64,000 nt of DNA, from contig NZ_BSVB01000001.1 of the NCBI RefSeq assembly GCF_030161895.1, positions 1,116,001 through 1,180,000 on the forward strand. Reading direction: 5' to 3'. The position numbers and the translations under genes were made by a program. Of the stretch, positions 2,738 to 6,182 are shown in pieces (position 1 is the first letter of the stretch; each line of letters opens with the position of its first letter). The DNA comes from Pseudolysinimonas kribbensis. Its GTDB lineage: Bacteria > Actinomycetota > Actinomycetes > Actinomycetales > Microbacteriaceae. A model generated the notes under the pieces. That model ran no database searches, was not told the DNA's origin, and saw nothing but the letters and a program-made list of their open reading frames with translations.

Positions 2738-3802
2738 GCACCGAAGCCGACGAGAGTCGGCTCGGGCTGCAGCACCACGCCGAACTCCGACAGCACCCGG
2801 GTCTGCACGAAGTCGGCGAGCTGCACCACGTCGGCCGCGGGGCGCCGCCGCGGTTCACGATCGCGAGGGTGTGCTTGGCCGAGATGCCCGCGCGCGAGCC
2901 GGGCAGCGCGAAGCCGCGCGGGATGCCGGCGCGCTCGATGAGCCAGGCGGCGCTGAGCTTGACGTGGCGCTCCCCGCCGGCGGCGGGGGCGGGATCGCGC
3001 TGCCGAGCGGCAGCACCCGCTCGGGGTCCTCCGGCTCCTGGGGCCAGCGCGGGGCGTCGGCCGGCAGACTGCGCGCGAACGACTCGGTGACGATCGGATT
3101 GGTGAAGAAGGAGCCCGCGCTCACCGAGTCGGGGTCCGCGGCATCCAGCACCATGCCCTTCGACCGGCGCAGCTCGAGCACCGCGGCGCGCACCCGCTCC
3201 AGCGGCGCCCGGTCGCCGATCCGCACCTGCAGGGCGCTCGCCAGCTGCGCATAGGCGATCGGGCGCGAGAGGCCCGGATCGCCCGTGTCCAGCGCGAGCT
3301 CGAGCGCGACCACGACACCGGGCCGGCCCTCCTTGAACACGCTCGTGCGGTAGCCGAATCCCAGCTCGTCCGGCCCGAGTCGCTCCACCTGCCCCGTGCC
3401 CGGCTCGGCGACCTCGACCGCGACGATGCTCGCGGCGATCTCCTGCCCGTAGGCGCCGATGTTCTGGATCGGCGCGGCACCCGCCGACCCGGGGATTCCG
3501 CTCAGCGCCTCCACGCCCGCGCCGCCCCGCGCGATGGCGGCCTGCACCACGCCGTCCCAGGGCTCGCCCGCCTCCACCCGCAGCACGCCCGGTCGCGGCT
3601 CGGAGACGCCCCGCGTCGCGACCCGCAGGACCGTGCCCGCGATGCCGTCATCCGCCACGACCAGATTCGAGCCGCCGCCGAGCACCAGGTCGCCCTCCTC
3701 GAGCTCGGCGATCGCGGCGAGGAGCTCGTCGCGCGTCGTCGCCTCCACGAATCGGCCCGCGGGGCCGCCGACCCGGAGCGTGGTGAGGTCGGCGAGGTTC
3801 AC
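2725..3802 (-). CDS. murB: UDP-N-acetylmuramate dehydrogenase (two frame breaks near the 3' end)
   Basis: MurB reduces UDP-GlcNAc-enolpyruvate to UDP-MurNAc with FAD and NADPH in the cytoplasm, an early step of peptidoglycan synthesis. Seen: LRVGGPAGRFVE at the start, the FAD-binding LGGGSNLVVADDG, GIPGSAGAAPIQNIGAYGQE, and SAGSFFTNPIV carrying the proton-donor Ser. The frame breaks near 2985 and near 2848; read across both, the C-terminus is ERHVKLSAAWLIERAG, GISAKHTLAIVNRGG and LQPEPTLVGFGADLI with the conserved Glu. Two added bases give exactly 360 codons. The GTG start at 3802 overlaps the upstream stop (GTGA). Likely sequencing losses, not decay. Confidence 0.9.
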
Positions 3803-4684: not shown

Positions 4685-4721
4685 AAAAGGCCCGGTGACG
4701 TCTCCGTCACCGGGCCTTCTT
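4685..4721 (-). terminator. Strong intrinsic terminator
   Basis: A perfect 14-bp stem (AAGGCCCGGTGACG with its complement) around a 4-base loop at 4687-4718. On the minus strand it is followed by TTTTCC, so it ends the short transcript carrying the 26-codon gene; A-rich bases on the other side might let it also work from the plus strand. Confidence 0.85.
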
Positions 4722-4738
4722 CGTGGTCTCGGGGCCGC

Positions 4739-4819
4739 CTACTGGCAGCTGTCGCACTGGAGGTCGTCCATCGGATCGACCGGCACGCTGTACCCGCCCA
4801 CGGTGTCGAGCTCGTTCAT
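4739..4819 (-). CDS. 26-residue peptide ending in Cys-Asp-Ser-Cys-Gln
   Basis: An open frame of 26 codons starting MNELDTVGGYSVPVDP and ending DDLQCDSCQ with TAG. Support for real translation: GGGGAGGT sits at the right distance before the ATG, a consensus-like promoter lies about 60 bases upstream, and a strong terminator follows 18 bases after the stop. The peptide is acidic, has no signal or membrane segment, and carries one CxxC pair at its end. I do not recognise a named family. It could bind metal, form a redox pair, be a modified-peptide precursor, or be a small coding region on a regulatory RNA. Confidence 0.7.
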   Translation of the reverse strand: MNELDTVGGYSVPVDPMDDLQCDSCQ

Positions 4820-4867
4820 CTCGACCTCCCCTCTGTCTGCGGTCCGCGAGGCTGCTGCCTTGCGGGG

Positions 4868-4918
4868 TCTTCACTATATAACGGGAATTCCACGGATGTC
4901 ATTCCACTAGATGTAGTG
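4868..4918 (-). promoter_or_regulatory. Promoter of the 26-codon gene with repeat elements
   Basis: On the minus strand ATGACA (about 4897-4902) and TATATA (4875-4880) are spaced 16 bases apart, a good sigma-70 type match. GTGGAAT occurs twice with a 14-base period (4901-4907 and 4887-4893), flanking the -35 box. Just upstream is the palindrome CACTA-gatg-TAGTG (4905-4918). The predicted transcript from about 4868 to the terminator is close to 190 nt. The repeats suggest a dedicated regulator, not identified. Confidence 0.6.

Positions 4919-5039: not shown

Positions 5040-6182
<1,143 letters not shown>

Follow-up and report, generated by a model that had tools for sequence, protein, structure and literature searches.

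The window, a stretch of 64,000 nucleotides from the genome of Pseudolysinimonas kribbensis, contains at 4685-4918 on the minus strand a complete small transcription unit, made up of a promoter, a ribosome site, a frame of 26 codons and a terminator. The encoded peptide is, by homology, the redox-active C-terminal tail of the alpha subunit of a class I ribonucleotide reductase (RNR), detached from that subunit. It is very probable that the detached tail acts as a separately translated redox subunit, which would re-reduce the active site of the catalytic chain NrdA in trans, by a chemistry that we infer from sequence.

RNR is the essential enzyme that makes the building blocks of DNA, and with each turnover two cysteines in the active site of NrdA end up joined as a disulfide. 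In an ordinary class I enzyme a cysteine pair on NrdA's own flexible C-terminal tail swings in and reduces this disulfide, after which the tail pair is re-reduced by thioredoxin or glutaredoxin.

The free peptide and tail-less NrdA

Some matches to the peptide are the ends of long open frames. In three genomes from other families (G068, G086 and G081), NrdA ends in frame with VACPVDPMEALQCESCQ and a stop codon or with something similar, for example VGGVACPVDPMEALQCESCQ and a stop codon, and NrdA proteins of further actinobacterial families end in this tail as well. The fused tails and the free peptide have the motif VPVDPMDxLQC[DE]SCQ in common, and it is this homology to in-frame NrdA ends in sister families that identifies the peptide as an RNR tail. 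Its cysteine pair (C22-D-S-C25-Q26) lies at the extreme C-terminus and is invariant among homologs. Profile searches of Pfam, NCBIfam, PHROGs and PDB with the 26 residues gave no match, and neither Pfam nor NCBIfam detected a thioredoxin-fold domain of the thioredoxin, glutaredoxin or NrdH kind in them.

In a survey of 99 relatives the peptide recurs in 32, with E-values down to 1e-12 and identities mostly of 60-90%, and the genomes that carry it usually have at least two copies. Selection on it is strong and purifying: for 68 distinct coding sequences, all of them copies behind the window-type promoter, nonsynonymous and synonymous diversity (pN and pS) are 0.048 and 0.437, giving a pN/pS of 0.11. 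Differences at codon positions 1, 2 and 3 are 0.058, 0.027 and 0.310, a pattern lacking in the other two frames. A peptide search together with a comparison of codon and base conservation had been set beforehand as the test of an earlier note on this DNA, which would have fallen had the frame not been conserved in relatives; it is conserved.

The family Microbacteriaceae was compared through 60 genera, with one genome each. All 28 NrdA proteins with readable ends stop at (R/K)(R/K)GF(GF)GG or a similar sequence, and none has a cysteine beyond the catalytic YY motif. The tail is thus not part of the alpha polypeptide here, being a separate open reading frame (ORF) in 28/28 readable genomes. The active-site cysteines and the NLCxE motif of the tail-less NrdA are intact, so that it should still need a reductant. 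The tail gene is found in 29/29 genera with NrdA and in 0/31 with NrdE, a distribution without exception among the 60 genera, although shared descent means that they are not independent points. The tail-less count is 28 since an apparent indel of 1 nt hides the end of the remaining NrdA, that of the window genome. All 31 NrdE proteins have kept CVSC(M/T/A)L as their own tail. In the NrdA genomes no further complete gene for an RNR catalytic subunit was seen. The sole catalytic gene encodes a class I alpha subunit of the NF005101 type, followed by nrdB, and not a B12-dependent class II enzyme.

The tail ORF directly follows nrdA in 26 of the 28 readable genomes, starting 65-180 nt past its stop codon and having its own start codon, and across genera all three frames relative to nrdA occur. 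In a tree of the catalytic domain, three close NrdA proteins with fused tails form one clade (support 100/100), apart from all 24 detached ones. Given this separation, and the fused tails in outgroups, a single fission of the tail from NrdA would be the simplest reading, with the root within the group unresolved.

The gene order in the window genome is nrdA (from 2511789), tail (2514241) and nrdB (2514359), with nrdA out of frame through an apparent loss of 1 nt in GGATTCGGGGGCTGG. Both murB (window 2855-3802) and nrdA (L031:6200-6474) appear frame-broken in this assembly. The assembly is a single contig with an estimated completeness of 86%; this estimate, and the broken frame of murB as well, make indel errors likely, and short frames in it therefore need to be checked against relatives.

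The partner NrdB has phenylalanine in place of the radical tyrosine (WEEANHCMSF) in 32/32 genomes, namely the window genome (L031:6321-7304) and 31 relatives. As general background on RNRs (see also PMC8463856), phenylalanine at the radical-tyrosine position of NrdB marks class Ic, and the sequence therefore suggests that the partner enzyme is of the Mn/Fe type of class Ic.

Promoter, NrdR boxes and the conserved locus

The features of the unit are listed in the table. The earlier note, made from the letters of the window, had described a promoter, a ribosome site, a 26-codon frame and a terminator as a stand-alone unit between unrelated genes, and all of these are where it put them, on the minus strand.

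Table. Features of the tail gene unit in the window
Feature	Position	Strand	Basis
Tail-peptide ORF, 26 codons, MNELDTVGGYSVPVDPMDDLQCDSCQ then stop	4739..4819 (4819-4739)	-	sequence, homologs, codon-level conservation
Shine-Dalgarno sequence GGGGAGG	4825..4831	-	sequence
-35 hexamer ATGACA	4897..4902	-	promoter scan
-10 hexamer TATAGT	4873..4878	-	promoter scan
NrdR box 1, CACTACATCTAGTG, the CACTA-TAGTG palindrome of the earlier note	4905..4918	-	box-pair comparison
NrdR box 2, CCGTTATATAGTG, overlapping the -10 hexamer	4872..4884	-	box-pair comparison
Inter-box spacer GAATGACATCCGTGGAATTC; in relatives the palindrome GAATGACA-N4-TGTCATTC lies here	4885..4904	-	comparison of loci
Intrinsic terminator hairpin, AAGGCCCGGTGACG-GAGA-CGTCACCGGGCCTT, then TT	4685..4720	-	sequence, fold

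The promoter is sigma-70-like (ATGACA-N18-TATAGT, 4902-4873), with 10/12 matches to consensus; one such site was found, compared with a mean of 0.0 in shuffled sequence. The terminator hairpin is GC-rich, with a 14-bp core and 16 pairs when folded. The 184-nt unit folds with a z-score of -5.0, most of which is the terminator's share, and no Rfam family matched it.

Around the promoter lies a pair of NrdR boxes, CACTACATCTAGTG-N20-CCGTTATATAGTG, with a fixed spacing of 20 nt. The pair is present at 66 of 80 tail loci, with scores of 21-27 out of 27 (13-18 for shuffled sequences). Within the family it also precedes each of the 25 nrdA genes that were scored, with scores of 19-25. In the window genome (3.54 Mb) the pattern, allowing up to 3 mismatches, occurs only twice, before the tail gene and before nrdA, with 0 hits in the control; the pattern was written from these sites, and so the informative part is the absence of others. 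The genome encodes NrdR itself (TIGR00244, 143.7 bits, cut-off 124.65). When the boxes are taken as 16 bp the spacer is 17 bp, and NrdR proteins bind box pairs with a spacer of 14-17 bp (PMC12051234). The NrdR of S. coelicolor represses RNR genes at high dATP (PMC9110341), and we infer that the same repression logic would apply to the tail gene and to nrdA. The tight control suggested by the earlier note is thus right in kind, and its CACTA-TAGTG palindrome is genuine, being one of the conserved box pair.

The paired GTGGAAT repeats that it also reported are present, and are the form that a second palindrome, GAATGACA-N4-TGTCATTC, takes at this site. The palindrome is conserved between the boxes in the tail promoters of 66 relatives and absent from nrdA promoters, and may possibly serve a second regulator. 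A SigR/SigH promoter was considered, since GGAAT-N18-GTT fits the window. Its second arm and spacer vary across loci, and it was dropped because the NrdR box pair is conserved at 66 loci and also shared with nrdA promoters.

The neighbours of the window copy that were tested are murB, two genes for MaoC-type dehydratases and one for an APH-type kinase. The same MaoC-type dehydratase and murB genes adjoin 64 of 66 window-type loci in Microbacteriaceae genomes and bins (Leifsonia, Salinibacterium, Microcella, Cryobacterium, Glaciihabitans, Aurantimicrobium and others), and 0 of 14 other tail loci. It is concluded that the window copy stands alone at a single ancestral locus of the family and has been conserved there. 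A third copy in the window genome (L032:6273-6163, minus strand; genome C1:1496165) is without NrdR boxes, and its upstream stretch resembles that of copies in G040, which has six. This third copy is possibly mobile or island-borne.

Copies away from nrdA

The sole tail gene of G014 (0.9 Mb, completeness 98%) and of G052 (completeness 100%) is not near nrdA but at the murB/MaoC locus known from the window. The window-type copy forms a monocistronic unit between a promoter and a terminator that serve it alone. Relatives of the tail are encoded in 305 IMG/VR stretches, and named phages that bear it are Clavibacter phage CMP1, Pontimonas phage phiPsal1 and Pseudanabaena phage Pan2. A search with PF02867 found no RNR catalytic gene in 36 virus records searched over their full length, these 3 named phages and 2 plasmids bearing tails, some of the virus records possibly being fragments, in which absence is weaker evidence. 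The unlinked sole copies, the monocistronic window-type copy and the phage and plasmid copies without an RNR argue that the tail peptide would work unattached. A search in phages for the tail of another RNR type found nothing useful.

In CMP1 and phiPsal1 (L093, L094) the tail gene comes directly after a holin gene, sometimes overlapping its stop codon. By eye, a small holin-like membrane protein precedes the tail gene in many IMG/VR phages (for example L188, L192, L221, L223, L234-L238). Pan2 (L095, about 6001-6078) has a divergent tail peptide, MDDFDTIDGFACPNDPADLVSCESCQ, which overlaps the annotated ORF Pan2_27 in another frame; this phage is recorded from a cyanobacterium, and its origin or host assignment may merit a closer check. 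One plasmid tail (NZ_CP065038.1, 49231-49332) encodes 33 residues, WP_223361114.1, named 'ribonucleotide-diphosphate reductase subunit beta' in RefSeq. The name hints at the RNR link but gives the wrong subunit, the protein being an alpha tail.

Mechanism, alternatives and known systems

In the proposed mechanism, the peptide would dock in the active-site cleft of tail-less NrdA through its conserved YxVPVDPMDxLQ stretch, and the CDSC near its C-terminus would reduce the active-site disulfide in trans. The oxidised peptide would then be re-reduced by thioredoxin or NrdH. Most genomes have two kinds of tail gene, a copy that lies between nrdA and nrdB and a monocistronic copy of the window type. 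Both would be under NrdR, the dATP/ATP-sensing repressor of RNR genes, so that tail and enzyme would rise together when deoxynucleoside triphosphates (dNTPs) are short. The proposal predicts that the peptide is translated in vivo, binds NrdA and transfers electrons, and that NrdR represses its gene. The redox microprotein that was among the suggestions of the earlier note is right in kind, the peptide being the redox cysteine pair of an RNR tail.

A wider reading, which we place just on the probable side, is that the class I RNR of a large bacterial clade uses a redox peptide of 20-30 residues that diffuses freely and serves as a third subunit, which can be exchanged and is supplied independently of the enzyme, and that phages and plasmids carry the peptide alone to raise or redirect dNTP synthesis in the host.

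Some points weigh against the proposed mechanism. Phage copies of the tail often stand behind a holin gene, and a late position in a lysis cassette is odd for nucleotide metabolism. A free 26-mer must offset the loss of its tether by affinity or abundance. An AlphaFold2 model of NrdA from G027, continued past its TAA stop to include the in-frame tail that follows, had a mean confidence score (pLDDT) of 55, with the tail below 35; the input alignment had 25 rows, and the model is uninterpretable.

The position of the tail ORF directly behind nrdA would also suit a tail that ends up covalently on NrdA, through programmed frameshifting, readthrough or ligation, with the stand-alone copies as spares or decoys. 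This is very unlikely: the tail ORF has its own start codon, and its frame relative to nrdA is 0, +1 or +2 depending on genus; G014 and G052 lack any tail in the vicinity of nrdA; the window copy is equipped with a promoter, Shine-Dalgarno sequence and terminator of its own; and phages and plasmids carry the tail without nrdA. Programmed frameshifting from nrdA into the tail was rejected, as the frame relation is not conserved. About equally improbable is that the peptide regulates or competes, mimicking a tail so as to tune RNR by occupying the NrdA active site or a redoxin. NrdR control in common with nrdA fits such a role, and multiple copies and phage copies would suit a titratable modulator, but the NrdA of these genomes is tail-less and offers nothing to compete against, the cysteine pair is invariant and would not be needed in a blocker, and the gene is absent wherever the RNR retains its tail.

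Less probable still is that a redoxin or mycothiol reduces NrdA directly and the CxxC peptide serves some other step of RNR, such as metal delivery to the Mn/Fe-type NrdB. Metal loading would matter for an enzyme with the class Ic phenylalanine, and CxxC can bind metal. Against this, the same phenylalanine is present in NrdB where the tail is fused (L081-L083), and the homology of the peptide to the fused NrdA tail, a known thiol-disulfide element, also speaks against the metal-binding option of the earlier note. We give almost no credence to the precursor of a ribosomally synthesized and post-translationally modified peptide or to a dual-function small RNA, both of which the earlier note had offered. 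The small size, strong terminator and stable fold are what either would show, but there is no modifying enzyme within the conserved neighbourhood (murB, the MaoC pair and the APH-type kinase), conservation is of the codon type, no Rfam family fits, and homology to the RNR tail and co-occurrence with tail-less NrdA contradict both.

RNR is much studied, and the class I redox tail is treated as part of the catalytic chain. The split gene, and the lone copies in phages and plasmids, suggest that a universal enzyme can function with a loose, diffusible tail. An independent tail would be a natural two-part system, in which the re-reduction step, hard to approach when tethered, becomes open to titration, mutation and labelling. 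It would assign a role to a family of tiny genes, most of which lack annotation, would show that genome annotation misses a likely essential part of an enzyme, would account for a set of phage and plasmid micro-ORFs, and would bring into the NrdR regulon a member of a new kind. If phages and plasmids do carry the tail to alter dNTP synthesis in the host, it would rank with the smallest auxiliary metabolic genes on record.

Both split RNRs and RNR tails have been described before. A detached class I redox tail that is free, separately regulated, duplicated or mobile was not found in the literature searched, which covered few subscription journals. Like the tail of class I NrdA and NrdE, the peptide has Cys-x2-Cys within one or two residues of its C-terminus, with the homologous VDPMExLQCESCQ in actinobacterial NrdA, and would be expected to reduce the active-site disulfide; the tail of B. 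subtilis NrdE has been observed within the catalytic site (PMC6572854). It differs in being a separate protein of 21-30 residues with its own start codon, whose gene often has its own promoter, occurs in multiple copies and is unlinked to nrdA in some genomes. The promoter resembles those of the NrdR regulon in having two boxes about three helical turns apart that overlap the promoter (16-bp boxes, spacer of 16-17 bp), whereas a gene of 26 codons is a new member within the literature searched.

Phage nrdA genes that are divided into separately encoded pieces, nrdA-a and nrdA-b, are mostly tied to introns, inteins or homing endonucleases (reviewed in PMC3653736), and the cases consulted there include no lone travelling redox tail. 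The nearest precedent is the split class II RNR of P. aeruginosa, in which the small chain NrdJb supplies the cysteine pair for NrdJa and carries out the disulfide exchange, and is required in vivo (PMC4520616); it is a biochemical precedent for disulfide exchange by a free tail. In both systems the catalytic chain and the redox cysteine chain are separate polypeptides, although here action in trans is predicted from sequence. NrdJa/NrdJb depends on B12 and belongs to class II, and its NrdJb is a full subunit encoded in one operon with NrdJa, whereas here the enzyme is of class I and the counterpart of NrdJb is no more than a tail peptide, whose gene is under independent regulation, has been duplicated and is mobile.
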